Shown here: positions 292 through 55,773 of the stretch, piece after piece
Position numbering within the stretch: position 1 is the first letter of the stretch
How the letters are laid out: each line of letters begins with the position of its first letter
Source of the DNA: Alphaproteobacteria bacterium
GTDB taxonomy: Bacteria; Pseudomonadota; Alphaproteobacteria; UBA828
DNA: 64,000 bases
Reading direction: 5' to 3'
NCBI GenBank assembly: GCA_022820945.1
Contig: JAJEEP010000127.1
Coordinates: 1-64,000, forward strand
Made by a program: the position numbers and the translations under genes
Notes under the pieces: model-generated
What the model saw: the letters and a program-made list of their open reading frames with translations, nothing else
Told to the model about the DNA's origin: nothing
Databases searched by the model: none

Positions 292-1925
292 AGCGCACGG
301 CCGCATCGTGGCTGGGCCTGCAGGGGAACACCCTGATTCCCGCGCGGCGCCGCGGTTCCGAGGGCACCGGCGGCCTCATCCGCCACCCCGCCATCGACGA
401 GTGGGTCAGGCGCGTCTGCGCCGTTTACGCCGACGGCCGCTGCCTGATCGCCGAGGGCTACGAGAGCGACCGCAGGCTGCGCGCGGCTCTCATGGAGCTC
501 CGCCGCAACGGCAGTGTCCCCGGCCGGCTGATCGAGCGCACCGCCGGCCTCGACGAGATCGCCGCGTGCTGGCGCAGGGCGGCGCATGAGGCTGCGGGCG
601 GCGAGGCGCCTGCGGCGCACAAGGTGCGCACCCTCTTCGAAGAGGCCGCCGCGGCCAAGGCCAGCGACGTCGTCTTCGAGAACGACGGCGGGCTCTGCCG
701 CGTCCACGGCATCGTCAACGACCGCAAGCTCCAGCTCGCAGCCCCCATGCCCGCAGACGAGGGCCGCGAGGTCATGGGCTTCCTCTTCCACTGCAAGGAC
801 GAGGGCTCGGCCCAGACTTCCTACCAGCGAAGCGCCTTCCAGGGCTTCTCGGTCCGCGCCGGCGGCCAGGTGCCGTTGCCTGCCACCGTGTCGGCGCTGC
901 GCTGCCAGCGCGGCCCCCACGAGCCCGACGGCGATCACCTCTTCGCCCGCCTCTTCTACCGCGACCGCATCGAGAAGGGCACCACGCTGGAGAGCCTCGG
1001 CTTCTCCGCCGAGGAGGCGGCGGTGTTCTCGGAGATCCGCATGTCGCTCAGGGGCGGCATCTTCCTCGGCGGCACGGCAGGTGACGGCAAGTCCACCACG
1101 CTGGCTACCAATCTCGCGCTCCAGATGGAGGAGGCGCAGGGCCAGCTCAACGTGGTCACCATCGAGGACCCGGTGGAATACCCCATTCCGGGCGCGGTGC
1201 AGATCGCGGTGCCCACCACCGGCTCCGGCGAGGAGCGCGGAAAACACTTCCGGGACGCGCTGATGCACTTCTGCCGGGTCCATCCCGCATCGGGCATGGT
1301 CTCGGAGATCAGGGACGCCGATGCGGCCCGGCAGGTGCTGCAGTTTATCGATACCGGGCACCAGGTGTGGACCACCATCCACGTCCACTCCGCCAACGCG
1401 ATCCTTTTCCGCCTGCTCGACATGGGGGTGGGCACCGCCGAGGTGTGCAAGCCCGGCAACATCGAGCTGCTGATGAAGCAGACCCTGCTGCCCAGGCTCT
1501 GCGACGCATGCGCGCTCGAGGAGCCGGCGGGAGGCAAGGCGGTTCCGGACTGGCTCGGGCGGCATCTCCGCAACTGGCCTCGGGTGCGCTTTCGCAACCC
1601 GCAGGGCTGCGAGACCTGCAATCGCGAAGACCGAAGTGTCGTGGCGGGCAAGGCCTGGAACGGCTACGCGCAGCAGACGGCAATTGCCGAGACCATCCGC
1701 CCCGATGCGGCCTACCTCGCCTTCGTGCGCCAGCGCGACCCGGCGGGCGCCTGGGAGCACTGGGTCACTCATATGGGCGGCAGGCCCATGGGCGAGCGCA
1801 TCTGGGCACTGGTGGCGGCCGGCCGTGCGGACCCCTTGGATGCGCTGCGCAAGGGCGCACGGGTGAACCAGGCGGAGGCCGTGGATGCCTCGCCGCTTCC
1901 GGCCCCGGGGGAAGACGCCGCATGA
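288..1925 (+). CDS. pilQ: PilQ-like type IV pilus assembly ATPase (GspE/PilT family)
   Basis: 545 aa, from GTG 288 preceded by AAGGGAG. This is a secretion/pilus-extension ATPase of the IncI thin-pilus type. Walker A GTAGDGKSTT lies near residues 262-271. The Asp box (VVTIEDPVEY) follows, then an atypical Walker B region (SGMVSEIRDAD) and a His box (TTIHVHSA). A C-terminal zinc motif LCDAC...CETC resembles the tetracysteine site of GspE/PilB enzymes. The N-terminal 120 residues are poorly conserved. It overlaps the pilR-like gene by ATGA and presumably powers polymerisation of the PilS-like pilin at the inner membrane. Distinguished from the DotB ATPase at 9421, which has a different context and lacks the cysteines. 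Confidence 0.85.
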   Translation: MKRTAASWLGLQGNTLIPARRRGSEGTGGLIRHPAIDEWVRRVCAVYADGRCLIAEGYESDRRLRAALMELRRNGSVPGRLIERTAGLDEIAACWRRAAHEAAGGEAPAAHKVRTLFEEAAAAKASDVVFENDGGLCRVHGIVNDRKLQLAAPMPADEGREVMGFLFHCKDEGSAQTSYQRSAFQGFSVRAGGQVPLPATVSALRCQRGPHEPDGDHLFARLFYRDRIEKGTTLESLGFSAEEAAVFSEIRMSLRGGIFLGGTAGDGKSTTLATNLALQMEEAQGQLNVVTIEDPVEYPIPGAVQIAVPTTGSGEERGKHFRDALMHFCRVHPASGMVSEIRDADAARQVLQFIDTGHQVWTTIHVHSANAILFRLLDMGVGTAEVCKPGNIELLMKQTLLPRLCDACALEEPAGGKAVPDWLGRHLRNWPRVRFRNPQGCETCNREDRSVVAGKAWNGYAQQTAIAETIRPDAAYLAFVRQRDPAGAWEHWVTHMGGRPMGERIWALVAAGRADPLDALRKGARVNQAEAVDASPLPAPGEDAA

Positions 1926-3633: not shown

Positions 3634-4847
3634 CCACGCGAAGCGTGGATACGCTCGGCGTGCACTCGCGCGGCATGACCACGCGAAGCGTGGATATGCC
3701 CGACATGGGCACGGACGGCACGCGGCCGCTTCGCCGGTACCGTATGGGCGCAGGCGCGCTGGTGGCGGTGCTGCTTCTGGCGGCGCTGGCGGGCACCGGG
3801 CTTGCGGCCCATTACGCGGCGCAGCATGCGGCGCGGCAGATGGCGTCGTCCTTCGAGGCGGGCCGGGTGTTCGGCGAATGGGTACTGGCGGCGCACCGGG
3901 CGAGCCAGGAGCACGACTTCTCGCCGCGCCTCGAGATGGAGCCCGCCTTCGTGCTGACGCCGGCGGCATTGCGGGCCCTGGGCGCGGTGCCGCCGGGGTT
4001 GCCCGAGCGGGTGGGTCGCGACGCCACCTTCATGGTCGGCATCATGGACGACGGCCGTGGGGTAACGGGGCATTCGCCCGGACCGGGGCGTTCCCCTGTG
4101 GCGATGGCTTTCGGGGTGCTGGAGCCGGCACGCCCGGAGGCGGCCCCGGCCTTGCGGAGCGGCGCCATCGCCGCCGGTCTCGCCGCGCTCGCGGAGGCCG
4201 GCAGCACCGAGACGGCGATGGCGGCTCACGTACCCGCCATCGAGGCCGCGCTGGCGCGGCCGCTCGCAGCGGACGGCCTCTACGTCACGGCAGACGCAGG
4301 GCTGCACTACAAGGACGCGGTTCTCTACCGGCGCCCGCAGCCCGGGCGGCCGGGGTTGAACCGCATGGAGACGGCCCTCGATGCCGGAGGCCACAATGTC
4401 ACCGCTATCGCGGATGCCGACGGATTCACGGCATCGGTCACGCGCGATGCAGAGGTTGGCGGCAGCGGCAGCGTGACCGGCGATGCCGCCGCGGCGGGGC
4501 TCGAAGCGGGATCGCTCGAGGCGGGCGCCCTGGGGGCGGCCTCGCTCGCCGTCTCGGCCGAGCTCCTGGTGGGGCGCGCGGTGGCGGGGCCGGTATCGGC
4601 GGGCTCGGCGGAGGTCAACGGCCGTCTTGAAGCGGCGTCCGCCGCTGTCAGCGGCGCGCTCACCGCAGCGACCCTGGCCGTGGCCGGCACGGCCTCCGTC
4701 TCGGGTGCCACGTCGGCGCAAACGCTGGCGGGAGAGATGCTGACGGCAAGCGGCACCGCACGCGCGGATCGGATCTCGTCCACCGGGCTGCACGGTCCCG
4801 ATGCGTCCATCGGCTCTCTCAGCGTCGGGAGCTGCGGCGGATGCTGA
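3630..4847 (+). CDS. pilV: PilV-like pilus-tip/minor pilin protein 1
   Basis: 405 aa from ATG 3630; ATGs at 3675 and 3744 are alternatives. A membrane helix (MGAGALVAVLLLAALAGTG) follows a 38-residue leader. The hallmark NRMETALDAGGHNVTAI occurs mid-protein and matches the PilV signature. After it comes an Ala/Gly/Ser/Thr/Val-rich, beta-repeat-like stalk, and the protein ends SVGSCGGC. In IncI plasmids PilV is the tip adhesin that selects recipients. Here there is no evident shufflon; instead a second paralogue follows. The N-terminus contains a duplicated 45-bp segment with a hairpin core, and a single F1 hairpin repeat lies at 4080-4101. Confidence 0.7.
   Translation: MTTRSVDTLGVHSRGMTTRSVDMPDMGTDGTRPLRRYRMGAGALVAVLLLAALAGTGLAAHYAAQHAARQMASSFEAGRVFGEWVLAAHRASQEHDFSPRLEMEPAFVLTPAALRALGAVPPGLPERVGRDATFMVGIMDDGRGVTGHSPGPGRSPVAMAFGVLEPARPEAAPALRSGAIAAGLAALAEAGSTETAMAAHVPAIEAALARPLAADGLYVTADAGLHYKDAVLYRRPQPGRPGLNRMETALDAGGHNVTAIADADGFTASVTRDAEVGGSGSVTGDAAAAGLEAGSLEAGALGAASLAVSAELLVGRAVAGPVSAGSAEVNGRLEAASAAVSGALTAATLAVAGTASVSGATSAQTLAGEMLTASGTARADRISSTGLHGPDASIGSLSVGSCGGC
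3634..3693 (+). repeat. F4 hairpin repeat, two copies 45 bp apart
   Basis: CCACGCGAAGCGTGG occurs at 3634-3648 and 3679-3693. Each is a perfect 6-bp stem with a GAA loop. The copies lie 45 bp (15 codons) apart within the start of the first pilV-like gene, giving the peptide MTTRSVD twice. Both copies are part of a start-codon context (ATGACCACGC), so either ATG could initiate. Confidence 0.85.
4080..4101 (+). repeat. F1 hairpin repeat, single unit
   Basis: GGACCGGGGCGTTCCCCTGT matches the 18-bp F1 family seen in eight further clusters. It is read here as SPGPGRSP inside the first pilV-like gene. Confidence 0.8.
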
Positions 4848-6134: not shown

Positions 6135-6569
6135 ATGAAGGCGAGGTTCCCGCTCCTGCCCATCGTCATCGCCTTGGCTGCCTGCCTCTGGGCTACGGAC
6201 GCCGCGGCGCAGGCCGGGACGATACCTGCGGGCATCGGCACGCACGGCACAGGGGAACGCCCTGGTGCGGGGGATCGCCCTGGTGCGGCACAGCATGCAG
6301 ACAGCACCGCCTCCGGTTCCGCGACGGCGCTCCGGCAGCGGGCACTGACGACGATGGAGTCGCTGCGCGAGGAGATCGCGACGCTTTCCGCGCTGAAGAA
6401 CGCGCAGGCAGCGCTGCTTGCGTTGAACCAGGCGGGTTCGGAGGCGGGCGAGGCGCCCGCGACCCTCGCCGCAGCACTGTGCGCGGAGCCCGCGCTCGGC
6501 GCGTGGTGCCCTCTGCTGCCCGCCACCTTCGGCACCTCACCCAGGGAGGACGGCCATGACCGCGACTGA
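6135..6569 (+). CDS. Small exported protein of the pilus cluster, unknown
   Basis: 144 aa. A signal peptide is clear (LLPIVIALAACLWATDAAAQA). The mature protein has an F1 repeat-derived linker (GTGERPGAGDRPG) and a helical segment rich in Ala/Leu (SLREEIATLSALKNAQAALLAL), then two cysteines (CAEPALGAWC). It resembles PilP-size periplasmic pilus proteins only in location and length, and I do not recognise a family. Its 3' end overlaps the next gene by 14 bases. Confidence 0.6.
   Translation: MKARFPLLPIVIALAACLWATDAAAQAGTIPAGIGTHGTGERPGAGDRPGAAQHADSTASGSATALRQRALTTMESLREEIATLSALKNAQAALLALNQAGSEAGEAPATLAAALCAEPALGAWCPLLPATFGTSPREDGHDRD
6251..6286 (+). repeat. F1 hairpin repeat cluster, 2 units
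   Basis: Two tandem 18-bp units, AGGGGAACGCCCTGGTGC and GGGGGATCGCCCTGGTGC, lie within the exported pilus protein. Confidence 0.85.
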
Positions 6570-7911
6570 CCTCGTTCTGATCGCTCTCGTGCTGACGGCC
6601 ATGGCGGCTGTCGCCGCGGTGGACGCCCGGCGCGCGATCGTGGACCCGCGCCTGATGCTTGCGCTGGTCTGCGCCGGCCTGCTCTGGCGCATGTTCGGAC
6701 CGGTCGAGACCGGGCCGCTCTGGACTGGCCCCGCAGGGGCCGCGCTCGGTGTGGCCGTCGTTGCCGTGCCGATCGTGGTCGCGCAGCTGTGCCGCCGGCG
6801 CTGGCCGCTCTTTCCCGGCGATGCGATGATGCTGGGCGGCCTCGGCTTCGTCCTCGGCCCTCTCGGGCTGGGGTGGGCGCTGTTGGCAGGCGCGACCCTG
6901 TCCTCGATTTATCGCGCCTGGCTCCAGCGCCGCCGGGGCCGCTCCTTCTTCCGGGGCTACTGCCCGCTCGGGCCCGGCATGATGGCCGGCGCCATGGCGG
7001 TGTTCGTGTTCGTGAACGCCGGCGGCGCGCTCGCTGCGGACGAGGCGGAGATACCGCTGCCGCCGGTTCATCCGGGCATGCAGGACGCAGCGGCTTCCCG
7101 GATCCCCATGCCTGCGCCCCCGCCGCCCCGTCCGGGCTCGACGGAAGCTGCGGAGCAGTCCGCCATGCTCGCGGCGACGGAGCTGGCGCCGGTGCGGACG
7201 CCGTTGCCCCCGAAGTTGGCGATGCGCGTTGTCGCCGTCGACGAGGCAGTGCCGCTCGCCTTCGCCGCGCTCGCAGATCGCATCGCCACCACCGCGGGCG
7301 TTCCCGTCGAGGTCGAGGAGCGGCCTTCGCGCGTCGCGGGCGGCGCCGTGCGGCTGCCCGATCCGCCGCGTGTGCGTCTCGCGTTCGAGGGAGCGCTGCC
7401 GGGTCTGCTCAACCTTGTGACGGCGCGCACCGGCTACGGCTGGACCTGGGCAGGCGGCGCCGTGGTCTTCTACCGGTATCGCGACATCGAGCAGCCCACG
7501 CCACACGGGATGGTAGCGCCTGCCGATCGGAAAACGGGCTCAGGGGAACGCCCTGGTACAGGGGAACTCCCCGGTGCAGGGGAACTCCCTAGTACAGCGG
7601 AACGCCCCGGTACCGGGCAAGTCCCCGATACGCCGGTTCCGGACCGGGGCGATCGGCTGTGGATCGTGGACCCGGCGCACCACGGGACCCTGATGGACGT
7701 GCTCGAGGACTGGGGCGCACAGGCGGGCTGGTCGGTGGTGTGGAAGGCTGCGCGGCACTATGCCGTGGGCGCCCGCGCCACGCTCCGGGGCGGGTTCCTG
7801 GACGCCGCCGATCTGCTTATGGCAGGCCCCGCGACGCGCCGGTCCCTGGTGGCGTTCGCGCACGAGCCGAACCGGCACCTGGTCATCAAGGACGCGGGGG
7901 CTGTGCAATGA
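6556..7911 (+). CDS. Prepilin peptidase-like domain fused to STN-like and TcpQ domains
   Basis: 451 aa. The N-terminal ~165 residues form five or so membrane spans. They contain DARRAIVDPRL and FPGDAMMLGGLG, corresponding to the two aspartate motifs (D..R..., GxGD-like) of A24 prepilin peptidases. After an Ala/Pro linker, residues ~215-315 resemble a secretin/STN domain (VEVEERPSR, LLNLVTARTGYGWTW). Then come five hairpin-repeat units encoding a Gly/Pro/Glu linker, and a C-terminal TcpQ/PilL domain (GTLMDVLEDWGAQAGWSVVW). IncI plasmids carry PilU (peptidase), PilN (secretin) and PilL (TcpQ) as separate proteins, and no other pilU or secretin gene is seen here. The GxGD motif is read as PGD, so activity is uncertain. 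Confidence 0.6.
   Translation: MTATDLVLIALVLTAMAAVAAVDARRAIVDPRLMLALVCAGLLWRMFGPVETGPLWTGPAGAALGVAVVAVPIVVAQLCRRRWPLFPGDAMMLGGLGFVLGPLGLGWALLAGATLSSIYRAWLQRRRGRSFFRGYCPLGPGMMAGAMAVFVFVNAGGALAADEAEIPLPPVHPGMQDAAASRIPMPAPPPPRPGSTEAAEQSAMLAATELAPVRTPLPPKLAMRVVAVDEAVPLAFAALADRIATTAGVPVEVEERPSRVAGGAVRLPDPPRVRLAFEGALPGLLNLVTARTGYGWTWAGGAVVFYRYRDIEQPTPHGMVAPADRKTGSGERPGTGELPGAGELPSTAERPGTGQVPDTPVPDRGDRLWIVDPAHHGTLMDVLEDWGAQAGWSVVWKAARHYAVGARATLRGGFLDAADLLMAGPATRRSLVAFAHEPNRHLVIKDAGAVQ
7542..7631 (+). repeat. F1 hairpin repeat cluster, 5 units
   Basis: Five contiguous 18-bp units (90 bp), for example AGGGGAACTCCCTAGTAC, encode a linker of the GERPGTGELPGAGELP type between the STN-like and TcpQ domains. 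Confidence 0.9.
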
Positions 7912-8555
7912 TCCTCTCACGCGCCCTTCGCCTCCTCGCGGTCTGCTGCATCGCCCCGATTGCAGTCGGTTGCGCGCCCTTCTGGACCGGGACGCCGGAG
8001 GCGGATCCGGCGCCTCCGGCGACCGTGCGGCCGGACCCTGCGGAGATGCGTCTCGCGGAGGCGGCGGCACGGGCCGAGGCGGCGCTGACCGCGCTGGCCA
8101 GGATCGAGTCCGCGCGGACCCCGCGGGCTGAGGCCAGGGCACCGGGGCGTTCCCCTGTACCGGGGAGTTCCCCCGCGCTGGAGGACGTGCCGGCCGCCCT
8201 GAGGCGTGCGGTCACGCTCGACTGGATCGGCCCTGTCGAGACCCTTGCCGAGGCCCTCGCGCAACGAGCGGGCTACCGCTTCGTGGCGACAGGCTCGATG
8301 CCGATACGGCCGGTGATGGTCACCGTAAGGGCCGCCGGCACCCCTCTCATCGAGGTCTTGCGGGATGCGGGCCTCCAGGCCGGGGCCGCTGCGACGCTCG
8401 TGGTGGACGCGGGCAACCGCACGGTTCGCCTCGACTGGACAAGGGATCACCTTGGTCCAGGGGATCACCCTGGTCCAGGGGAACTCCCGCGGACGGGAGA
8501 GCGCCCGGATTCAAGAGAACGTAGCGGTTCGGCGCCGGGGAAGGAGGGCTCATGA
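7908..8555 (+). CDS. dotD: DotD/TraH-family lipoprotein
   Basis: 215 aa from ATG 7908, overlapping the upstream stop (ATGA). It has a lipoprotein signal with lipobox near CCIAPIAVGC. The C-terminal half (VTLDWIGPVETLAEALAQ, GYRFV, MPIRPVMVTV) matches the secretin N0-like fold of DotD, an outer-membrane core lipoprotein of type IVB systems that acts with DotC and DotH. F1 hairpin repeats occur twice, before the domain and in the C-terminal tail, where they form an unstructured Gly/Pro extension absent from typical DotD proteins. Position before dotC and dotB equals traH-traI-traJ of R64. Confidence 0.8.
   Translation: MILSRALRLLAVCCIAPIAVGCAPFWTGTPEADPAPPATVRPDPAEMRLAEAAARAEAALTALARIESARTPRAEARAPGRSPVPGSSPALEDVPAALRRAVTLDWIGPVETLAEALAQRAGYRFVATGSMPIRPVMVTVRAAGTPLIEVLRDAGLQAGAAATLVVDAGNRTVRLDWTRDHLGPGDHPGPGELPRTGERPDSRERSGSAPGKEGS
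8141..8176 (+). repeat. F1 hairpin repeat cluster, 2 units
   Basis: ACCGGGGCGTTCCCCTGT and ACCGGGGAGTTCCCCCGC in tandem, reverse orientation relative to the 7542 cluster; read as PGRSPVPGSSP in dotD. Confidence 0.85.
8441..8494 (+). repeat. F1 hairpin repeat cluster, 3 units
   Basis: Three 18-bp units including AGGGGATCACCCTGGTCC, whose core CCAGGGGATCACCCTGG is a perfect 6-bp stem with a 5-base loop. It encodes the C-terminal tail of dotD. Confidence 0.85.
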
Positions 8556-9424
8556 CCCGCATGTGCATATTGCTGCTGGCCCTCGTCTGCCTCGGCGCCG
8601 ATATCGCCTTCGGCGGCACGGAACCGCCGTCGACGCTGGAGACGCTGCTGAGTTCCGAGGCGCCCGAGGCGGCATCGGACAGCGGCGCGCTCTCCGGAGA
8701 AGCACGCCGGCCTGCGATGCGCTCGGCCGCGCTTGGCTTCGGCGCACGTGCAGGGCTCGCCCGCCGGAGCTGGGAGATCGCCGCGATGCTTGAGCGGCAC
8801 GCCGGGAAACTCTCCGCGATCTACCGCTTCCGGGACCTGATGCTGGAGAAGGACGGCTTCACCGTGATGCCGCCGGTGCTGGCGGAGACCGACCGTGCCT
8901 TCCGGCTCCGCCGGGACGGCGTCCAAGCTGCAAGCGCACGCCGTGTCGTCCGTATCGTCGAGCCTGAGCGGATCGTGAGCGCAGTGCCGCACTGGCGCGA
9001 TTACCTGGTGCGCGAATGGTCCGAGGCCGTGCTCCCGGCGGCGGTGCTGTTCCCCCGCAGCAGCGCGGAGGGCGCGCTCTGGCGTCAGTGGGTGCGCGAG
9101 GGCTGGGAGCACGGGACCGCGCTCTCCGACGACATCTTCGCCGCCGACCTGGAGCGCCTCAACCGGGTGTTCGAGGGGCTGGTGCAGTGGCGCCGGTCCA
9201 ACCTGGCAGGGATGGTCTCGGCGCCGTCTCTGGAGACCGAACGAATCGCCGTGAGCGGCCACGCACGGCTCGTGCGGATCGACGAGACCCGCGCTGCCCT
9301 CGGCGAGCCGGCGCGCTTCGAGCTCCGCCCCGGAGAGTGGAAGCCGCTCCCCGAAGGAGACACCCCTGCGGGTGGGCACACCCCTGCGGGCGGAAACACC
9401 CCATCGGATGGAGGCACCCAATGA
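8552..9424 (+). CDS. dotC: DotC/TraI-family outer-membrane core protein
   Basis: 290 aa from ATG 8552, overlapping dotD. It has an N-terminal signal peptide (CILLLALVCLGADIAFGG); the cysteine needed for a lipoprotein is not at a clear lipobox. The conserved DotC body is evident: ALGFGARAGLARRSWEI, FRDLMLEKDGFTVMPPVLAETD, PHWRDYLVREWSEAVLP, GALWRQWVREGWEHG. It would pair with DotD to build the outer-membrane ring around DotH/DotG. The last 20 residues are encoded by three F2 hairpin repeats that run right up to the dotB start codon. Confidence 0.85.
   Translation: MTRMCILLLALVCLGADIAFGGTEPPSTLETLLSSEAPEAASDSGALSGEARRPAMRSAALGFGARAGLARRSWEIAAMLERHAGKLSAIYRFRDLMLEKDGFTVMPPVLAETDRAFRLRRDGVQAASARRVVRIVEPERIVSAVPHWRDYLVREWSEAVLPAAVLFPRSSAEGALWRQWVREGWEHGTALSDDIFAADLERLNRVFEGLVQWRRSNLAGMVSAPSLETERIAVSGHARLVRIDETRAALGEPARFELRPGEWKPLPEGDTPAGGHTPAGGNTPSDGGTQ
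9361..9414 (+). repeat. F2 hairpin repeat cluster, 3 units
   Basis: 18-bp units such as CACCCCTGCGGGTGGGCA (core CACCC-CTGC-GGGTG) form the 3' end of dotC. The dotB ATG follows 6 bp later, so the hairpins sit in the dotB translation-initiation region. Confidence 0.85.
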
Positions 9425-10662
9425 ACCGTCGCTGGGCGGACGCCGATCACGCCTTCCCGGCCGCAGGGCTGGACTGCTTCCTGCTCTGGGCTGCCGATCT
9501 CGGCGCCTCCGACGTCTCCTTCCAGACAGGCGCGCCGGCCTTCGTCGAGATCGACGGGAGGCTCCGCCGGGCCACCGGCGCCGTTCTGGACGGCCTGGTC
9601 ATGGAGCGCATCTGCGCCCGCATCTTCGACCGCATCCCTGCGGGCGAAGGCACCCCTCCGGGTGGAGGCACCCCTCCGGGTGGAGGCACCGCAGACGGCA
9701 TCCTGCGCTCCGGCAGGGCCATCGACTGCTCCTATGCCGTCGCCTCCGGCCCCCGGCGCTTCCGCCGCTACCGCTGCAACCTCTCGCCGGTGCTCGCGGG
9801 CCAGCGCTTCGGCATCAACATCACCATGCGCGTGCTGCCCGGCAGCCCGCCCACCCTGGAAGAGCTCGGCATTGAGCCGGAGATCGCCGAGGCCTGGGAC
9901 CTCTGTCGGGGCCTCACCCTGGTCACGGGCGTGCCGGGCTCGGGGAAGTCGACGCTGCTTGCGGCGGGCACCCGGAGGCTTCTGGAGAGCGGCGCGGGCC
10001 GCATTCAGTCTTACGAGGCGCCGATCGAGTTCGTCTTTGACGGCATCGCCGGCGACGGGGCACTGATGTCGTCCTCGGAGGTGCCGCGCCACTTCCCGAG
10101 CTTCGCCGAGGGGCTGAGGGCCAGCCTCAGGCGGCGCCCTGCGGCGGTCGTGGTGGGCGAGGCGCGGGACCGGGAGACGGCCGAGGCCGTGATCCGGGCG
10201 GCGGACTTCGGGATCGCCGTGTTCGCCACCGCGCACACGGTGGGCGTGGCGGCGGCGATCCGGCGCCTTCTGGCGGAGTTCCCGGCGAGCGAACGCCAGG
10301 AGCGCGGCGCGGCGCTGATCGACGTGACGACCCTCGTCGTGACCCAGATGCTGCTGCCGAACCCGCAGTGTGACCTCACCCCTTCGGGTGGACGCACTCC
10401 TGCGGGTGGCCGCACTGCCATCAGGGAATGGCTGCGTTTCGACGGCACCCTCACGGGGACGCTGCTGGAGGCGCCGCAGGAGCGCTGGCCGGCGCTGATC
10501 GCGGATGCGCTGCGGCGCACCGGCAACGATCTCGCGGCGAGCGCCGACAGAGCCTTTCGGGAAGGGCGGATCGGAGAAGCGGATTGGCGGCGCGTGACGG
10601 CTGCCGCGGACGGTCCGCGAACCGCCCGCAGTCCGGGCACGACAGGGAGGATGTGGCTTTGA
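9421..10662 (+). CDS. dotB: DotB/TraJ-family secretion ATPase
   Basis: 413 aa from ATG 9421, overlapping the dotC stop. A PilT-like hexameric ATPase that energises type IVB transfer. Walker A GVPGSGKST is at residues ~170-178, with EAPIEFV (Asp box), RRRPAAVVVGEARDRET (Walker B) and FATAHTVG (His box). It is of the DotB rather than PilQ type: no zinc cysteines, and it sits between dotC and icmT. Two F2 repeat clusters are inserted, one in the N-terminal domain (near residue 72) and one in the C-terminal domain (near residue 320), both in loops between conserved motifs. Confidence 0.9.
   Translation: MNRRWADADHAFPAAGLDCFLLWAADLGASDVSFQTGAPAFVEIDGRLRRATGAVLDGLVMERICARIFDRIPAGEGTPPGGGTPPGGGTADGILRSGRAIDCSYAVASGPRRFRRYRCNLSPVLAGQRFGINITMRVLPGSPPTLEELGIEPEIAEAWDLCRGLTLVTGVPGSGKSTLLAAGTRRLLESGAGRIQSYEAPIEFVFDGIAGDGALMSSSEVPRHFPSFAEGLRASLRRRPAAVVVGEARDRETAEAVIRAADFGIAVFATAHTVGVAAAIRRLLAEFPASERQERGAALIDVTTLVVTQMLLPNPQCDLTPSGGRTPAGGRTAIREWLRFDGTLTGTLLEAPQERWPALIADALRRTGNDLAASADRAFREGRIGEADWRRVTAAADGPRTARSPGTTGRMWL
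9633..9686 (+). repeat. F2 hairpin repeat cluster, 3 units
   Basis: Two identical units CACCCCTCCGGGTGGAGG preceded by one diverged unit; read as GEGTPPGGGTPPGGGT in the DotB N-terminal domain. Confidence 0.9.
10377..10412 (+). repeat. F2 hairpin repeat cluster, 2 units
   Basis: CACCCCTTCGGGTGGACG and CACTCCTGCGGGTGGCCG in tandem inside the DotB C-terminal domain (peptide TPSGGRTPAGGRT). Confidence 0.85.
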
Positions 10663-10677
10663 CCGGGGAGACGAACG

Positions 10678-11025
10678 ATGGCCGTCTCGATAGAGACGCC
10701 GCACCAGGGAGTTCCCCAGGACCGGGGTGTTCCCCCGTACCAGGGCCGTGCCCTGTACCAGGGAGTTCCCCTGTGGCGGGACACGATGCGGCCGGTGCGC
10801 TTCTACTTCATCGACGCACGGCTGCTTGTGCTGCTGACGGTCTGGCTGTTCGTGCCGGCGTGGTGGACGACGGCGGCGGTGTTGATCGCGGCGGCCGCGC
10901 TGAGGGTGGCGGAAGCCAGAGGCTACCGGCTTCACGCGGCACTCAGGGCGGTGCGCGCAAGGCTGGCCGGACGGCGCACGGCCCTTCACGCCAGACGCGC
11001 GCGGCGTTTCGTGGACTTCGGCTGA
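10678..11025 (+). CDS. icmT: IcmT/TraK-family inner-membrane protein
   Basis: 115 aa from ATG 10678 (GGGAGA 7 bases upstream). The conserved part begins MRPVRFYFIDARLLVLL, followed by a paired membrane region (LTVWLFVPAWWTTAAVLIAAA) and a basic tail, the IcmT/TraK layout. The first ~32 residues are almost entirely four F1 hairpin repeats (QGVPQDRGVPPYQG...), an extension not expected in this family, which is usually ~85 aa. The internal ATG 10786, just after the repeats, is a plausible alternative start that would give an 79-aa protein of normal form. Confidence 0.75.
   Translation: MAVSIETPHQGVPQDRGVPPYQGRALYQGVPLWRDTMRPVRFYFIDARLLVLLTVWLFVPAWWTTAAVLIAAAALRVAEARGYRLHAALRAVRARLAGRRTALHARRARRFVDFG
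10703..10774 (+). repeat. F1 hairpin repeat cluster, 4 units
   Basis: Four 18-bp units, for example ACCAGGGAGTTCCCCTGT with core CCAGGG-AGTTC-CCCTG. They form the 5' end of icmT and lie immediately upstream of its internal ATG 10786. Confidence 0.9.
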
Positions 11026-11489
11026 TGGCGGCGGTGGCGTTGGCAACGGTGTGCCTGTCCACGGCCGGACATGCCGGCTTCCTCTATGTGCCGCAGGACG
11101 GGACGTCGCCGAACGCGGTCGACGCCGGCGGCGGTGCGGAACCGCAGCGGGCGCTCGACTCTGCTGCAAGCGGCGACGCCCGGATTGCTGCAGACGACCC
11201 TGCGGTCGCAAAGCCGGTCTCCGGCCGATGGCGCGTCAACCCCAACGAGATGCTGCGGCAGGTTCTGGGCCGCTGGGCAGGGCGCGCCGGCATGGAGGTT
11301 CTGTTCCTCACCGACCGTCGCTACCGGCTGCACGAGGGGAGGGCTTTCCGCGGTTCCTTCGAGGAGGCGACGCGGGCGCTGTTCTCTTCGCTCTCCCATT
11401 TGCCGCATCCGCCGGCGGGCGAGCTCAGGCCCGGCGCGCGGACCCTCGCGGTCCTTCATCGGGCGCGCTTGGCAGGAGACGGACGATGA
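11025..11489 (+). CDS. TcpQ-domain periplasmic protein
   Basis: 154 aa. ATG 11025 overlaps the icmT stop by one base (TGATG). It has a short signal peptide (MAAVALATVCLSTAGHA). The C-terminal half (SGRWRVNPNEMLRQVLGRWAG, AGMEVLFLTDRRYRLHEG, FRGSFEEATRALF) fits the TcpQ C-terminal domain found in PilL and Dot/Icm-associated lipoproteins, which bind outer-membrane secretin or core rings. It lies where R64 has traL. A second TcpQ domain ends the fusion protein at 6556-7911. Confidence 0.6.
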   Translation: MAAVALATVCLSTAGHAGFLYVPQDGTSPNAVDAGGGAEPQRALDSAASGDARIAADDPAVAKPVSGRWRVNPNEMLRQVLGRWAGRAGMEVLFLTDRRYRLHEGRAFRGSFEEATRALFSSLSHLPHPPAGELRPGARTLAVLHRARLAGDGR

Positions 11490-12532
11490 GGCGCGCAGGA
11501 GTGCCGATGCAGTCTCTCGGACCTCTCCTGGCGGGGTGCCTCGGGGGCCTGGCAACGTGCATCGCGGTGCTTTCGATGCCGGACAGCGCGGTGGCGCCGC
11601 CGGTAGAGCTGTCGGCCCCGGAGGGGCGGGAGCCGGCCGTAGTCGCGGCCCTGCGCGCGAAGGGCGCGCGCGTCCTGTCGCTTGGCAAACGGGGCGGGCT
11701 CGACGGGCGCCTGGTGGAGCCGGCGGACGGCGATGCCTACAGCCTCTACCTGACGCCGGACGGACATGCGGTCGCGGGTCTGCTCTACGGTCCCGACGGA
11801 GCCCTGCTCACCGGCCGCCAGCTCGCTTCCGCGGGTATCGCAAGCGACAGGGCCGTCGAGACGTATGAGACGCGGCGCGTGTCCCGCGCCACGCCGAACG
11901 GGGAGAACTCTATCTCCGGCGGACGGTCCGGCCATGAGGCGGCTCACGACGGCGAGACCGATTTCCTTCCGGAATACGTCGCCGGGTTCGAGAGACCGGG
12001 AACCGGCAAGGCAGAAAGGGGCGATATCTCCTATGCCGCGACGTTCCGCCTGGCTCACGCCGACGGCCGCGAGCCGCAGTCACCCGACGCGGAGGCGCTG
12101 TTCACGCGATCCCATTCCGCCTTCGGCTTTTCGGTCGGGCGGAGCGGCCCGGCGGCGGTGGTGTTTGCCGATCCCGCCTGCCGCTGGTCGCGCGCGGCGG
12201 TCACACGGCTTGCGCGTGCCGCGCTCGACGGGCGCCTTCGTCTGCGGGTGATCCCGGTGGGCGTGCTCGGCGCCGCCTCCGCCCGCGAGGCCGCTGCCGT
12301 TGCCACCGCCCGCGATCCCGCCCTGGCCTGGTTCGAGGGAGCCCCCGGACCGGCGAGCCCGGAAGGCGGGCGGCGGATCGCCCGCAACAACGCCCTGTTC
12401 GATGCGTGGGGCGCCGGCGCGGTTCCGCTGATCGCCTGGCGGGCGCGGGACGGCCGTGTCGCGCAGCGGGTCGGAGATGTCGAAGACGTCGAAGACGTCG
12501 ATGCCTGGCTGGAGGGCTCGGCCGATGAGTGA
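11486..12532 (+). CDS. DsbC/DsbG-like thioredoxin-fold protein with altered active site
   Basis: 348 aa from ATG 11486 (ATGA overlap). After a hydrophobic N-terminus (LGPLLAGCLGGLATCIAVLS) come a DsbG-like dimerisation region (VSLGKRGGLDGRL...YLTPDGHAVAGLLYGPDG) and a thioredoxin domain (VVFADPACRWSRAAVTRLAR ... VIPVG ... NNALFDAWGAGAVPLIAW with the cis-Pro in AVPL). The usual CPYC is CRWS, so the second cysteine is missing. A single-cysteine form could isomerise or trap but not oxidise classically. It may fold disulphide-containing pilins or core proteins in the periplasm. Confidence 0.65.
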   Translation: MRRAGVPMQSLGPLLAGCLGGLATCIAVLSMPDSAVAPPVELSAPEGREPAVVAALRAKGARVLSLGKRGGLDGRLVEPADGDAYSLYLTPDGHAVAGLLYGPDGALLTGRQLASAGIASDRAVETYETRRVSRATPNGENSISGGRSGHEAAHDGETDFLPEYVAGFERPGTGKAERGDISYAATFRLAHADGREPQSPDAEALFTRSHSAFGFSVGRSGPAAVVFADPACRWSRAAVTRLARAALDGRLRLRVIPVGVLGAASAREAAAVATARDPALAWFEGAPGPASPEGGRRIARNNALFDAWGAGAVPLIAWRARDGRVAQRVGDVEDVEDVDAWLEGSADE

Positions 12533-13169
12533 ACGGTCGCGCGCCGTCAGGCAGGCGGTCAACCGCTTCGCCTTCCACCGCGACCAGCACCGCGGCTGGT
12601 GCAGGGCCGCAATCTGGCTGCTGCTCTGCAACGCGCTCACGCTGGCCATATTCGGCGCATACGTAGCGCTCCACTCCACCGTCTACATCACCGTGGCCGC
12701 CACGCCGGACGGCAGGCTGGTGCCGCTGACGCCGCTCGACGATCCCATCATGTCCGACGCGGCGCTCAGGAACTGGACCGTCTCGGCGGTCACCGAGGCC
12801 TTCACCCTCGGACACCACGACTGGCGGCTCAGGCTCGCCTCGGTGCGCGAGAGCTTCACCGACGAGGGCTACGAGTCCTTCCTGAAGGGACTGGACGAGA
12901 GCCTGTTCCTGGACCGGCTGAGGGACAACCTGCAGGTGGCCTCGGCGGTGGCGCGGGGCGCACCGGTGGTGACGGAGACGCGCTACTTCGAGGGGCGTCT
13001 GGGCTGGGCCATCGAGTTCCCGCTTCTGGTGACCTTCGCGGCGGGTGCGCGGAGCGTGAGCCAGGACCTTCTGGCGCGGGTCCTGGTGATGCGGGTGCCG
13101 CTCTCGGAGCGACCCGCCGGTATCGGGATCGCACAGCTGATCGCGGACAAGCGGAGGCCGGCGCAATGA
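12525..13169 (+). CDS. dotI: DotI/IcmL/TraM-family inner-membrane protein
   Basis: 214 aa. ATG 12525 (MSERSRAVRQ) overlaps the previous gene by 8 bases. One membrane span (CRAAIWLLLCNALTLAIFGAYVAL) follows a basic cytoplasmic N-terminus. The periplasmic domain with LTPLDDPIMSDAALRNWTVSAV, FTDEGYESFLKGL and PLLVTF is the VirB8-like fold of IcmL/DotI. In Dot/Icm it is an essential inner-membrane scaffold linking the DotO ATPase to the core. This copy contains no hairpin repeats. Confidence 0.85.
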   Translation: MSERSRAVRQAVNRFAFHRDQHRGWCRAAIWLLLCNALTLAIFGAYVALHSTVYITVAATPDGRLVPLTPLDDPIMSDAALRNWTVSAVTEAFTLGHHDWRLRLASVRESFTDEGYESFLKGLDESLFLDRLRDNLQVASAVARGAPVVTETRYFEGRLGWAIEFPLLVTFAAGARSVSQDLLARVLVMRVPLSERPAGIGIAQLIADKRRPAQ

Positions 13170-14209
13170 GGAGACGAACCTTGAGAGCCGCTCTTGCCCT
13201 GTCCCTGTTGCTGGCTGCCGCACCGGTGACATCGATCTCCGCCGATAACGGACGGGACGGCGGCGGTGAGGTCCGTCAGGGCGATCCCCTGCACCAAGGC
13301 GATCCCCTGTGGATGGAGCACGCGGCGCCGGACGACGACGTCGCGCGCATGGGCCGGGCGGCGATGCCGTTCACGGCGGAGCAGATCGAGGCGCTGGGCC
13401 GTCTGCTGCGGGAGACGCAGGCGGCGGTGGCGCTCGGCGGCGGAGCCCCGCCGGAAGGCCGGATCAGGCGGGTGCTCGTCGGCGCTCCCGGCGAGGGTGC
13501 GATCCCCTCGATCGCGGTGCGCAAGGGCTACGTGACAGCAGTCTCGTTCACCGATGCCACCGGCGCGCCGTGGCCGATCGAACGGGTGCTGGTGGATGGC
13601 CGGTTCCTGTCTGAGACAGTTCTGTCTGAGACAGTTCGTCCTGCTGGTGGGGCGGAAGACCACGGCGGCGCCGGCCGGGGGAGCGGTCGTGTGGCAAGCC
13701 ACCTTCTGTACCTGGCCCCGCAGGTGCGCTCGCTGCACGGCAACGCGGTCGTGAAGCTGCACGGCCTGGCCGAGCCGCTGGCGGCGATCGTTCGGGGCGG
13801 CGGCGCGGAAGCGGACTTCCGGGTCGAGATCAGGCTGGGCCTGCGCGGGCCCAACGCCATGCCGGAGGTCGCGGTGCAGGCCGCCTTCCACGCCGGGGAC
13901 GCGGTACTTCTGGACCTTCTGGCCGGCATCGCCCCGCCGGGCGCAGTGCGCCTCGCGGTGGATGGCGGCGGTCCCGACGACCGGGCGTGGCTGCTCGGCG
14001 CCGACCTTCTGCTCGTGACCCGGTCCGATCTGCTGTCGCCGGGGCCGTGGGCGGCGGAGCGCGGCGCCGGCGGGCGCTGGGCCTACCGGCTTGCCGACGT
14101 GCCGTACGCGCTGGTCAGCCGGGACGGCCGCGAGACGCGGCTCGCGTTCCGGGAGCGGAGCGAGATCCCGGGATTCCCCGCATTCGAGAGCCAAGGAGAA
14201 CCCAAATGA
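13166..14209 (+). CDS. dotH: DotH/IcmK/TraN-family core protein
   Basis: 347 aa from ATG 13166, overlapping dotI (ATGA). It has a signal peptide (LRAALALSLLLAAAPVTSIS). The segment PFTAEQIEALGRLLRETQAA and the beta-rich domain (IPSIAVRKGYVTAVSFTDATGAPWPIERV; LYLAPQVRSLHGNAVVKLHGL) are typical of DotH. In Dot/Icm systems DotH forms the outer-membrane channel with DotC, DotD and DotG. Two repeat insertions are present: F1 units right after the signal peptide, and two F3 units (peptide SETVLSETV) after the first beta domain. Confidence 0.85.
   Translation: MRRRTLRAALALSLLLAAAPVTSISADNGRDGGGEVRQGDPLHQGDPLWMEHAAPDDDVARMGRAAMPFTAEQIEALGRLLRETQAAVALGGGAPPEGRIRRVLVGAPGEGAIPSIAVRKGYVTAVSFTDATGAPWPIERVLVDGRFLSETVLSETVRPAGGAEDHGGAGRGSGRVASHLLYLAPQVRSLHGNAVVKLHGLAEPLAAIVRGGGAEADFRVEIRLGLRGPNAMPEVAVQAAFHAGDAVLLDLLAGIAPPGAVRLAVDGGGPDDRAWLLGADLLLVTRSDLLSPGPWAAERGAGGRWAYRLADVPYALVSRDGRETRLAFRERSEIPGFPAFESQGEPK
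13275..13310 (+). repeat. F1 hairpin repeat cluster, 2 units
   Basis: GTCAGGGCGATCCCCTGC and ACCAAGGCGATCCCCTGT in tandem, read as QGDPLHQGDPLW just after the DotH signal peptide. Confidence 0.85.
13607..13636 (+). repeat. F3 hairpin repeat, 2 units of 15 bp
   Basis: CTGTCTGAGACAGTT occurs twice in tandem. Each contains the perfect palindrome CTGTC-TGA-GACAG. The 15-bp period keeps dotH in frame (peptide LSETVLSETV). Confidence 0.9.
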
Positions 14210-15387
14210 ACGCCAGAGCACGTGTTGCAGCATCGGCCGCCCACAGGGGCCGGCTGTCGGGAGCGGTCGTGGCTGCGTCGTTCCTGATGCTGGTCTGCGC
14301 CGCGCCGGCCTGGCCCGACGTGCCGGACAACCGCGGAGTGAGTCTGAACCCCGAGGATCCGTTGTCGCCTGCCTACGAGGATACACTCGACCGGCGCGAC
14401 GAGCAGCGTCTGGAGGAGGCTCTCGAGACGGGCGACTCCTTCGTGAAGACAGTGCACGGGACGGGCCGCGTGCCCGGAGACGGCCTGCCCCCCGCCGTGC
14501 AGTACGGGCCGGAGGGTGGACCGGAGCGTTCCTCTGCGGGTGTGTCCACCCGAAGGGGTGTGTCCACCCAAAGGGGTGTGGATGCGGATGCAGTCGGGCG
14601 GCCCGCGACCGTCTACGAGTCCGTAGGGCTTCCCGCAGCGCGCAGCACGGGCGGCGGCGAGGACCTTGCCGCGCTGGTGGCCGTGCTGCTGGAGGCGTGG
14701 AACCGCCCGCCGCAGATCGTGAGTCTGCGCTACGCGGCTCCCCAGGACCGCGGCGGCGCGGCTGCCGGCCGCAGCGTGGAGAGGGCGGCTCAGGATGCCC
14801 CGAGGCCTCCGTACGTCGCGGCCGGGACCGGGCTCTACGCGCGCACCCTTTACGCCGTTGACTCGGACTATCCCGGCCCGGTGGTGCTGGAGCTGCTTCA
14901 GCCGCCGCTCGCCGGCGCGGTCGCGCACGGCGGTTTCGAGCGCGTGGGCCAGCGGCTGATGCTGCGCCTCGGCAGCCTGACCTGGCAGGGCCGGACCTTT
15001 CCGGTCGACGCCTGGGCGGTGGACCCGAACTGCGCCTGCTACGGGATAGAGGGCGAGGTCGACCGGCACTTCCTGTCCCGCGTCCTGCTTCCTGCGGCGG
15101 CGCGCTTTGCGGAGGGTTTTCTCACCGCCGTCGCCGCGCCGGCCAGGACGCTGACGATGCAGGACGGGACGGTCTTCGACGAGCGCGGTGCTGCCGGCGA
15201 GCGCGAGGCGCTCCATGCCGGCGCCGGAGCTGCGGCGCGCACCCTCGGCGACATCCTCATGGCGGACGCGCCGAAGGAGGCCACGGTCCGCATCCCCAGC
15301 AACACGCCCCTGGTGGTCATGGTGGCTCGCCACTTCGCGGCGCCTCCGGACCTGAGCCGGCGGGAGGGGGCCGATGCAGCGGAATGA
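14206..15387 (+). CDS. dotG: DotG/IcmE/TraO-family core channel protein
   Basis: 393 aa from ATG 14206 with a good AAGGAG site. An N-terminal signal or membrane segment (SGAVVAASFLMLVCAAPAW) leads a variable middle and a C-terminal VirB10/TrbI-like domain. Its motifs are YVAAGTGLYARTLYAVDSDY, PVVLELLQPPLAGA, RLMLRLGSLTWQGRTFPVDA and VRIPSNTPLVVMVARHF. Legionella DotG has a long pentapeptide-repeat middle, but this copy is short, like TraO. DotG spans both membranes and lines the channel. A cluster of F2-type repeats sits in the variable middle. The end overlaps the next gene by 14 bases. Confidence 0.85.
   Translation: MNARARVAASAAHRGRLSGAVVAASFLMLVCAAPAWPDVPDNRGVSLNPEDPLSPAYEDTLDRRDEQRLEEALETGDSFVKTVHGTGRVPGDGLPPAVQYGPEGGPERSSAGVSTRRGVSTQRGVDADAVGRPATVYESVGLPAARSTGGGEDLAALVAVLLEAWNRPPQIVSLRYAAPQDRGGAAAGRSVERAAQDAPRPPYVAAGTGLYARTLYAVDSDYPGPVVLELLQPPLAGAVAHGGFERVGQRLMLRLGSLTWQGRTFPVDAWAVDPNCACYGIEGEVDRHFLSRVLLPAAARFAEGFLTAVAAPARTLTMQDGTVFDERGAAGEREALHAGAGAAARTLGDILMADAPKEATVRIPSNTPLVVMVARHFAAPPDLSRREGADAAE
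14533..14586 (+). repeat. F2-type hairpin repeat cluster, 3 units
   Basis: TCTGCGGGTGTGTCCACC, CGAAGGGGTGTGTCCACC and a partial third unit, opposite orientation to the dotC/dotB clusters; read as GVSTRRGVSTQRGVD in dotG. Confidence 0.8.
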
Positions 15388-15910
15388 CCTCGGCGGCGCC
15401 ATGATCTCCTTCGTGCGGGACCTCGATCCCGCGCTGATGGGGCTGATCGGGGCGGCCTGCTACCTGCTCGCGCTGCTGGCGTTCGTCCAGGGATGTGCGC
15501 GGCTGCTGCGCCTCTCGGAGGACCGCTTCAACGGACCGTCCGCCGCAGGCACGGCGCTCTGCTTCCTGGTCTGCCTGGTCATGGCGAGCTTCCCCTCGTG
15601 GCTCGCCGCCGGCGGCGAGAGCCTGTTCGGGCAGGGAACCGCAGCCTCCGCCAGCCTCGGGCACCGCTCCGGGCGGGGCGCCGACTACGACGCGCTCATC
15701 GGCGCCGTGCTCACCGTCGTGGGCTGGGTCGGCCTCCTGGCGTTCCTGCGCGGCGTATTCGTGCTGCGCGCGGCAGCGGACGGGGTGCCCGGCGCGAGCG
15801 CCGGGCGGGCCGCCATGCACATGCTGGGCGGCGTCTGCGCCTGGCACATCGAGAGCCTGATCGGGGCGGTGCAGGCCAGCCTCGGCATCCAGGTCCTGAG
15901 GATCACATGA
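15374..15910 (+). CDS. TraQ/DotE (IcmC)-like membrane protein
   Basis: 178 aa from ATG 15374. Four membrane spans are visible: LMGLIGAACYLLALLAFVQG, AGTALCFLVCLVMASFPSWL, LIGAVLTVVGWVGLLAFLRG and a C-terminal amphipathic MHMLGGVCAWHIESLIGA. The arrangement and the position between dotG and dotP fit TraQ/DotE/IcmC, small polytopic proteins of the inner-membrane complex whose exact role is unknown. The ending GGVCAWHIESLI is shared with IcmC/IcmD-type proteins. It overlaps the ATG at 15907. Confidence 0.7.
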   Translation: MQRNDLGGAMISFVRDLDPALMGLIGAACYLLALLAFVQGCARLLRLSEDRFNGPSAAGTALCFLVCLVMASFPSWLAAGGESLFGQGTAASASLGHRSGRGADYDALIGAVLTVVGWVGLLAFLRGVFVLRAAADGVPGASAGRAAMHMLGGVCAWHIESLIGAVQASLGIQVLRIT

Positions 15911-15921
15911 AGGAGACGACC

Positions 15922-16326
15922 ATGACCATCGCAATCGCGCCCCTGCGGGCGGCCACACCCCTGCGGGTGGGCACACCCCTGCGGGCGGCTGCACTGGCGG
16001 TCCTCGGGACCGCATGGTTTCTCGCCGCGCAGCCCGCGCTGGCGGTATCGCTCGGCGACATGGCCGACAAGGCGGCGGCGGACCTCGACGCGGTGCCGGG
16101 GCTGCTGGCCATCGGCTTCTACATCGTCGGCGCCGCCATCGCGGGCTTCGGGCTGCTCAAGCTCAAGCGCCACGTCGACCACCCGCAGCAGACCACGCTG
16201 GGATCGGGGCTCATCGCCATCCTGATCGGAGTGGCGCTGATCGCCGCGCCTGCGGTGATCAACGGTCTGGGCGACACCTTCGGCCTGGGCGGCGCGGTCC
16301 AGACCGTGGCCCGGCCCAGGCTCTGA
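15922..16326 (+). CDS. TraR/DotP (IcmD)-like membrane protein
   Basis: 134 aa from ATG 15922, placed 7 bases after AAGGAG; ATG 15907 would add five residues. An F2-repeat-derived N-terminus (PLRAATPLRVGTPLRAA) precedes a signal-like span (LAVLGTAWFLAAQPALA). Two more spans follow (LLAIGFYIVGAAIAGFGLLKL and GSGLIAILIGVALIAAPAVI), separated by the family motif KLKRHVDHPQQTTLG. This is the IcmD/DotP/TraR pattern: small inner-membrane proteins of the type IVB channel. Confidence 0.75.
   Translation: MTIAIAPLRAATPLRVGTPLRAAALAVLGTAWFLAAQPALAVSLGDMADKAAADLDAVPGLLAIGFYIVGAAIAGFGLLKLKRHVDHPQQTTLGSGLIAILIGVALIAAPAVINGLGDTFGLGGAVQTVARPRL
15938..15991 (+). repeat. F2 hairpin repeat cluster, 3 units
   Basis: CGCCCCTGCGGGCGGCCA, CACCCCTGCGGGTGGGCA and CACCCCTGCGGGCGGCTG in tandem at the very start of the dotP-like gene, read in a different frame (PLRAATPLRVG) from dotB/dotC. 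Confidence 0.9.
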
Positions 16327-20422: not shown

Positions 20423-21002
20423 CAGGACCCTTCTCCTCGCGGGTGTCCTGGCACTGGCGCTCTCCCTCTGGCCGGCAGAAGCCTCGGCGGCCGGCGTGGT
20501 GGGAGCTGCCGGTGCCGAGTGTGCGCCGGAGGTGGAACGCGCGCTGATCGAGGGTGCACGCATGGGCGTCGAACGCGACGTGGCCGTCCTGCGCCATCCC
20601 GACCAGGGCATCCGCGACCCGGACTCGATCCTGGATTTCTCCTGCCTCGACGATCTCTTCGATTTCCGGCGCTTCGACATCCTCTTCGATCCGGGCAGGA
20701 GCATGTCCGACCTGCTTGGCCTTGTGCAGCGGCGCATCTGCGCGGCTGCACGCGAGGCATACCGCGGATACGTCGGCCGCCCCCTCAATGCGGCCCTCTA
20801 CACCGCGCGCATTCCCCGGCTGCCGGGGCTCGGTCCGGTCCACGTGATCGAGAGCGCGGGGCGCGCCGGGAGCGCCGAGCGGGACCAAGGCATTCCCCTG
20901 GACCGGCGCTTCCCGCTGGAACAGGGCGTTCCGCTGGACCACGGCGTTCCCTTGTACCAGGGAGTTCCCGTGTTTCGTAGCATCGTGGGAGGCGGTCGAT
21001 GA
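20406..21002 (+). CDS. Exported protein of the transfer operon, unknown
   Basis: 198 aa from ATG 20406 (ATG 20415 is an alternative). A signal peptide is clear (LLLAGVLALALSLWPAEASA). The mature part has CAPEVERALIEGARMGVERDVAVL and a Phe/Asp-rich stretch (DFSCLDDLFDFRRFDILFDP), with three cysteines in all. The last third is five F1 hairpin repeats (QGIPLDRRFPLEQGVPL...). Position between the dotO/ssb block and the TraW-like gene suggests a periplasmic accessory of the channel. No family is recognised. Confidence 0.55.
   Translation: MPAMTSRTLLLAGVLALALSLWPAEASAAGVVGAAGAECAPEVERALIEGARMGVERDVAVLRHPDQGIRDPDSILDFSCLDDLFDFRRFDILFDPGRSMSDLLGLVQRRICAAAREAYRGYVGRPLNAALYTARIPRLPGLGPVHVIESAGRAGSAERDQGIPLDRRFPLEQGVPLDHGVPLYQGVPVFRSIVGGGR
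20884..20973 (+). repeat. F1 hairpin repeat cluster, 5 units
   Basis: Five contiguous 18-bp units such as ACCAAGGCATTCCCCTGG, reading frame Gln-Gly-Val-Pro-Leu-Asp, at the 3' end of the exported protein gene. Confidence 0.9.
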
Positions 21003-24477: not shown

Positions 24478-24599
24478 GGCGGTGGGACGTGGTGCACGCG
24501 ATGCGCGCCGCGTGGCCGACAGTGCGGGTGGCCTTGCCGCCGCCGCAACGACGCCGGGGACCGCTGTTGGCGGGCGGCCCCCGGTAGAGGGAGATGCAC

Positions 24600-24686
24600 A
24601 TGAAGAAGTCTCTAAAGGTAACGGTGACGATCATCGCCGAGCGGACGACGACAGTCAAGCGGCGGTGGCGCCGAAGCCGAACCTAG
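24600..24686 (+). CDS. Candidate 28-aa basic peptide
   Basis: ATG 24600 lies 6 bases after GAGGGAG, with an in-frame ATG two codons upstream at 24594. The product starts MKKSLKVTVTIIAERTTTV and ends with an Arg-rich stretch (KRRWRRSRT). It begins with AAGAAGTCT codons unlike the GC-rich neighbours. It may be a leader peptide or a small DNA-binding product, or a chance ORF; nothing beyond the ribosome site supports it. Confidence 0.3.
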   Translation: MKKSLKVTVTIIAERTTTVKRRWRRSRT

Positions 24687-24784
24687 CGTCGCTCGCCGCG
24701 ACCGGTTCGAGAGCCATGACGATACTCGGCAGGACCGGGTGGCCTGTGCCTCTTTGGGGGCCGCAGCTGCCGCGAACAAGACGA

Positions 24785-55739: not shown

Positions 55740-55773
55740 GATCGGGCTCCGGGACGATTTCCTGGCGGGGACT

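Follow-up and report, generated by a model that had tools for sequence, protein, structure and literature searches.

Why do the genes of a bacterial secretion system carry, inside their own reading frames, tandem copies of short palindromes that recur in otherwise unrelated genes? The question is raised by a stretch of 64,000 nucleotides (hereafter the window; positions 1 to 64,000 of contig JAJEEP010000127.1) from an alphaproteobacterium of the UBA828 lineage, which is part of an 87.8-kb contig (C95) in a draft genome of 4.66 Mb and 178 contigs. Its first part (1-30.7 kb) contains a type IVB secretion cluster in which DotD, DotC, DotB, DotI and DotH are recognised by Pfam, and since the TrwB coupling protein and the TrwC relaxase are encoded in the same interval, we assign the cluster to a conjugative element; other genes follow from about 35 kb onward. 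The assignment of dotG is weak (Pfam TrbI, with a score under its cut-off), and the small icmD/dotP-like gene is named by position, Pfam giving only a sub-threshold DUF6750 match. The original prediction, made from the letters of the sequence, described two unrelated hairpin families in these genes, F1 and F2, and proposed that a common mechanism had copied them in frame. As described below, the feature is real and unusual, a miniature variant of protein-coding palindromic repeats.

F2 is an 18-bp dyad unit consisting of CACCC-CTNC-GGGTG plus 4 bp. All five of its predicted clusters were found, in dotC, dotB (two), dotG and the dotP-like gene (Table 1); the count of fourteen units was slightly generous, in that 13 are full and the last, in dotG, is partial. 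Folding of the core gives a hairpin with a stem of 5 bp and a loop of 4 nt, with energies of -3.6 to -4.0 kcal/mol as DNA and -6.4 to -7.7 kcal/mol as RNA, in agreement with the proposed hairpin. Two clusters indeed lie at gene junctions, one just before the dotB ATG and the other within the dotP-like protein at its residue 11, and the cluster in dotG forms with an adjoining F1-like unit a composite F1/F2 array (14522-14580). When single units are counted with a loose pattern, the window holds 71 matches to F2 where shuffles hold 59.6, a difference that is not significant. Tandem pairs gave 7 matches in the 4.66-Mb genome, every one on this contig, against 0 for controls. The significance of F2 lies in the tandem arrangement. 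A simple tandem detector returned 11 arrays of any kind in window positions 1-24500, nine of them with period 18, compared with a mean of 0.017 in dinucleotide shuffles and 0.033 in codon shuffles (maximum 1), and a chance origin of the arrays from GC-rich sequence is excluded by both.

The unit is a DNA-level entity and not a Gly/Pro linker, since it occurs on both strands and is read in different frames. One DNA unit gives rise to unrelated peptides, namely TPAGG in dotC and dotB, PLRVG in the dotP-like gene, GVSTRRG in dotG, where the orientation is opposite, and QGVPLY; the frame changes are those predicted. The frames given for the window come from a separate check, the automatic choice of host frame being unreliable at single loci and at times on the wrong strand. 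Every array in the window lies inside an open gene, and no stop codon occurs in any of the six frames of the F1 and F2 consensus or of that of a third family, F3. Relatives carry the same unit sequences, which excludes chance low-complexity drift of Gly/Pro linkers without a shared unit in relatives.

Comparison with relatives revealed both empty and filled sites. In DotB, for which four genomes of the same genus supplied relatives 68-87% identical, the first site (residues 71-88) is an exact in-frame insertion of 54 bp (3 units) that four relatives lack. At the second (residues 318-329) the window has 36 bp (2 units), L029, on contig C52 of the same-genus draft genome G007, has 72 bp (4 units), and the others, L028 and L030-L033, have 0. 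The dotP-like site holds 3 units in the window and 4 in an 81%-identical segment of G007 (C286); relatives have fewer or zero units at the dotC/dotB junction, and the homologous L146 segment of G007 has zero array at the dotG position. For F1, similar differences separate closer alleles. The TrwC relaxase genes compared are 93-95% identical to one another; their site A is either empty or filled by 36 bp, and the insertion at site B measures 36, 54 or 72 bp (0 bp in four more distant homologues). Alleles of another locus differ by 18, 36 or 72 bp, and whole-unit changes in copy number are seen between alleles 91-95% identical. The insertion junctions fall within the unit spacer and show a few bases of microhomology between host and unit. 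Thus, copy number varies between relatives by whole units at the dotB, dotP-like and TrwC sites. We also noted at least three distinct DotB copies in G007 (contigs C15, C52 and C59), which suggests that this draft genome either contains several conjugative elements related to one another or is a mixed bin.

F1 (loop GTTC) is likewise an 18-bp family and behaves like F2, so that two unrelated DNA-level families occupy one gene set by whole-unit, frame-keeping insertion, as had been proposed. F3, GGCACGAGTGTCTCC, has a period of 15; it was found in L042, L043, L031, L032, L045 and L147, where it sits in the same gene types of relatives, and is nearly absent from the window's genome (one weak match). 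In L031 (9238-9305), 15-bp F3 units are nested within F1 units with a period of 33, and this arrangement lies at the dotC/dotB junction, the site of F2 in the window. L034, from another contig of the window's genome that carries F1, contains two further dyad repeats, a 12-bp TGACTGAGTCAC and a 21-bp GCCGGCGAAGCCGCCGGCACG (6685-6743 and 6789-6828), and at window 3630-3720 there is a 45-bp tandem repeat with an inner hairpin, CCACGC-GAA-GCGTGG, the position of which varies among relatives. The periods of F1 (18), F2 (18), F3 (15) and the minor families (12, 15 and 21) are all multiples of three. Because F3 has a period of 15, the period common to F1 and F2 is no evidence by itself for one mechanism; what the families share is a length divisible by three, which any insertion would have to obey under selection to keep the frame open.

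The units are narrowly distributed. Statements about whole genomes, and about the confinement of arrays to conjugative elements, refer to pattern searches of draft assemblies, and some contigs were assigned by linkage or homology alone. F1 occurs in 6 of the 8 genomes of the genus. The family was represented by 13 further genomes, none of which carries it, and about 380 others from the class yielded no convincing match (there was one with three mismatches, and a like control match elsewhere). F2 was present in 2 of the 8 and F3 in 6 of the 8. In the window's own genome, where F2 tandem pairs are restricted to one contig, F1 is found on a few: C95, C153, C4 and C88, apart from a few one-mismatch matches near the control level; weak matches lie on C37 as well. 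C4 carries a close homologue of a TrwC relaxase, C37 a DUF7146/Toprim primase-like gene and the F3-rich contig C148 of G007 a coupling protein; all array host genes that could be identified are conjugation or primase-like genes, and contigs with identifiable genes that carry the families are mostly ones with conjugation genes. Neither an F1 nor an F2 tandem pattern was found in a viral collection, and Rfam gave zero matches above gathering score in window 1-24500. A general trait of alphaproteobacterial type IVB secretion plasmids was considered and rejected: Methylocapsa, Roseomonas and Methylosinus each supplied a 45-kb region, one with a GC content of 70%, and these contain 0, 0 and 1 arrays, the single array being an unrelated repeat.

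Units from element contigs of the genus were then examined for covariation within the dyad. In F1, Watson-Crick pairing was found at pair 1-13 in 82 of 122 units (55 expected) and at pair 3-11 in 105 of 122 (87 expected), the latter with A-T, C-G and T-A replacements; in F3, pair 3-8 was paired in 68 of 92 (39 expected). With one unit taken per array, F1 covariation still exceeds shuffles (total p 0.0005); for F2, distinct units gave a significant result (p 0.002). Pairing between adjacent units, as opposed to pairing inside the unit, was rejected for F1 (50 of 95, against 48.6) and F2 and is weak for F3 (55 of 98, against 47). The loop is conserved besides the stem, as GTTC in F1 and CTNC in F2. 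Pair 1-13 of F1 is a poor fit to a plain hairpin model, with G-T mismatches in 25 arrays as against 5 for A-C, and whichever way the genes in the window are oriented, the G-T mismatch keeps to the GTTC strand. A mirror bias was observed in F2 on the CACCC-CTNC strand, with A-C in 10 arrays and G-T in 2.

We tentatively favour a model, held with a little less than even confidence, in which F1, F2 and F3 are very short dyad DNA cassettes of a conjugative element that behave like protein-coding palindromes on a miniature scale, are copied as whole units and are filtered by reading frame. In this model, template switching or microhomology joining would place a copy of a unit elsewhere in the element during the single-stranded phases of replication or transfer, with the dyad of the unit as guide. 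Arrays would then lengthen and shorten by slippage and unit exchange, and insertions would survive only where they keep the frame and fall in linkers, loops or the ends of proteins. That units are copied from site to site within the element, and do not only expand locally, is supported by the presence of one consensus at many unrelated sites, by the composite dotG array and by F3 lying within F1 in L031. Since the arrays are confined to the element, we infer that the process acts in cis, for example by a switch of template while the DNA is single-stranded. The secretion proteins most likely carry the units as selfish or neutral passengers and not as working parts, and the units probably have no function. 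Of the shared copying mechanism that was originally proposed, the whole-unit, frame-keeping insertion is observed, the argument from a single period falls with F3, and a shared process is plausible only. The broader proposition, that conjugative elements of this genus run a cis process which copies several unrelated, very short dyad units, whole and frame-preservingly, into their own transfer genes during a single-stranded phase, seems to us doubtful. A relaxase-oriT origin of the units gained no support: intergenic positions 24478-24803, a guess at the transfer origin, contain other inverted repeats and zero unit-like sequence.

Several observations weigh against this model. No copying enzyme or intermediate was identified. 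The F3 dyad does not form a stable DNA hairpin, so guidance by hairpins cannot cover all the families; F2 covariation is not significant when one unit is taken per array (14 arrays only), and the covariation may in part reflect a few old subfamilies. F1 units resemble their array neighbours little more than they resemble units of other arrays (identity 0.853 against 0.808), so that slippage by itself does not account for the arrays; either local duplication contributes without dominating, or a shared constraint would maintain the consensus. Finally, the count of 18 arrays over 44 kb of element sequence, where 200 kb of chromosome (ten 20-kb stretches) gave a single array of another kind, speaks for the model, but element contigs other than the window had been chosen partly for carrying matches.

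The constraint could be supplied by a protein. Were the units dyad operators for a dimeric DNA-binding protein of the element acting in, for example, silencing, segregation or DNA processing, and kept by selection in dense coding sequence, then conservation of the loop along with the stem, the F3 dyad without a stable hairpin, the confinement of arrays to the conjugative element and the near equality of within-array and between-array identity would all fit. We nevertheless regard this as rather unlikely: stem positions covary, which independent half-sites would not do, three unrelated sequences substitute for one another between related elements, and many sites are empty in close relatives. 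The empty sites, which mostly lack any unit, also tell against a purely local origin, in which cryptic quasi-palindromes in linkers are expanded by slippage and hairpin-templated correction without movement between genes. The few bases that host and unit have in common at the junctions, the slight excess of within-array identity and very recent-looking expansions such as that in G007:C286 are consistent with such an origin. However, independent origins do not predict one consensus at many unrelated gene sites in several species, and we consider this explanation improbable and already largely refuted.

Two further possibilities have very little weight in our view. That the units are REP-like elements moved by a RAYT or IS200-type Y1 transposase, as the original prediction had thought worth checking, would accord with short palindromes in many copies and with a tolerance of G-T pairs in the stem, as known for REPs (PMC3733652). 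Yet the Y1_Tnp domain (PF01797) was found in none of the 8 genomes of the genus, with control genomes positive; F1, F2 and F3 have neither a GTAG nor a CGTC tag, and their units measure 15-18 bp as opposed to 20-40 bp and are intragenic and not intergenic. We therefore judge this account highly improbable, unless a transposase lies in the parts missing from these incomplete assemblies. Least credible of all is selection at the protein level for flexible Gly/Pro linkers, with the DNA repeat as a by-product. Some frames do yield Gly/Pro/Ser-rich peptides, and the insertions lie in variable loops and ends, but the idea is refuted by the diversity of frames and strands, which gives unrelated peptides, and by the covariation of paired positions at the DNA level.

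Among known systems, the closest parallels are the RPEs (Rickettsia palindromic elements) and the protein-coding palindromes of Wolbachia, which are in-frame palindromic repeats of several families with an unknown mobilising enzyme (PMC2229807). The units described here resemble them in being palindromic, in frame inside protein genes and of several families. RPEs, however, are single stem-loops of 105-146 bp that are also intergenic and occur in many conserved cellular genes (PMC2229807), whereas our units are 15-18 bp, tandem, read in several frames and both orientations and, for F1 and F2, located essentially on element contigs. What PARCELs (palindromic amphipathic repeat coding elements) encode is one conserved amphipathic motif of 25 residues (PMC2996958). 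They share with our units tandem coding repeats, dyad symmetry, variable copy number and a link to mobile elements, but here the peptide varies by frame and strand, with neither a single frame nor any conservation at protein level. REPs are 20-40 bp, GTAG- or CGTC-tagged and mainly intergenic, the GTAG types being linked to RAYTs (PMC3733652); very short palindromes, complementary stem changes and subfamilies are common to both, while tag, size, location and RAYT link all differ. The mobile hairpins of mitochondria, such as fungal double-hairpin elements and palindromic microsatellites, have been described in intergenic regions (PMC7218506). Like our units they are short, optional between close relatives and moved by an undefined mechanism, but they are mitochondrial and differ in sequence and size. 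Ordinary intragenic minisatellites likewise consist of head-to-tail copies, with periods divisible by three and alleles that differ by entire units. Our units are set apart by a single covarying dyad that recurs, on either strand, in many genes otherwise unrelated. In the open-access literature no description of comparable units was found.

If the copying between sites is real, insertable palindromic coding DNA extends down to 15-18 bp and is neutral to frame and strand. With many sites that occur naturally both empty and filled in nearly identical genes, the spread of protein-coding palindromes, a question apparently left unanswered for RPEs, becomes directly testable. The sites also indicate that proteins of the transfer machinery strongly tolerate insertions in linkers and ends, and if copying takes place in cis, secretion and relaxase genes would harbour protein-coding mobile DNA of exceptionally small size.

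Table 1. Host genes and dyad units in the window.
Feature	Position	Strand	Remarks
dotC	8552..9424	+	Pfam T4SS_TraI; F2 host gene
dotB	9421..10662	+	Pfam T2SSE; F2 host gene
dotG-like	14206..15387	+	Pfam TrbI, below cut-off; F2 host gene
icmD/dotP-like small membrane protein	15907..16326	+	by position, sub-threshold DUF6750; F2 host gene
TrwB coupling protein and TrwC relaxase	25517..30708	+	no arrays in this relaxase copy
F2 cluster, 3 units	9361..9414	+	last DotC codons (..DTPAGGHTPAGGNTPSDGGT); ends just 5' of dotB ATG at 9421
F2 cluster, 3 units	9633..9686	+	DotB residues ~71-88; 54-bp in-frame insertion
F2 cluster, 2 units	10377..10412	+	DotB residues ~318-329
F2 cluster, 2 full and 1 partial unit	14538..14580	- (reverse orientation)	dotG-like gene (GVSTRRGVSTQRG)
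F2 cluster, 3 units	15938..15991	+	N-terminus of icmD/dotP-like gene, residue 11 (APLRAATPLRVGTPLRAAA)
Single F1-like unit (CGGAG-CGTTC-CTCTG)	14522..14536	+	adjoins dotG F2 cluster; sequence reading
Single F1 unit	321..335	-	T2SSE-type ATPase gene; relatives without unit
F1 cluster, 2 units	4066..4100	+	0-2 units in relatives
F1 cluster, 2 units	6250..6285	-	
F1 cluster, 5 units	7541..7630	-	TcpQ-domain gene
F1 cluster, 2 units	8143..8178	+	DotD
F1 cluster, up to 4 units	8440..8511	-	DotD C-terminus
F1 cluster, 4 units	10705..10776	+	N-terminus of small IcmT-like gene (placed by position beside dotB; no Pfam match)
F1 cluster, 2 units	13277..13312	+	DotH N-terminus
15-bp dyad tandem repeat CTGTCTGAGACAGTT, 2.1 copies	13607..13637	+	DotH; relatives without repeat
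F1 cluster, 5 units	20886..20975	+	close to C-terminus of open reading frame 20406-21002
F1 cluster, 3 units	22325..22378	+	N-terminal part of open reading frame 22216-24477

Two other features of the window deserve mention. Directly downstream of the relaxase, an open reading frame of 1149 residues (30860-34306) has a weak NACHT match and is possibly cargo of the conjugative element. Further along, a large 192/384-bp tandem repeat (48418-50919) lies within a minus-strand open reading frame of 2856 residues (47259-55829).

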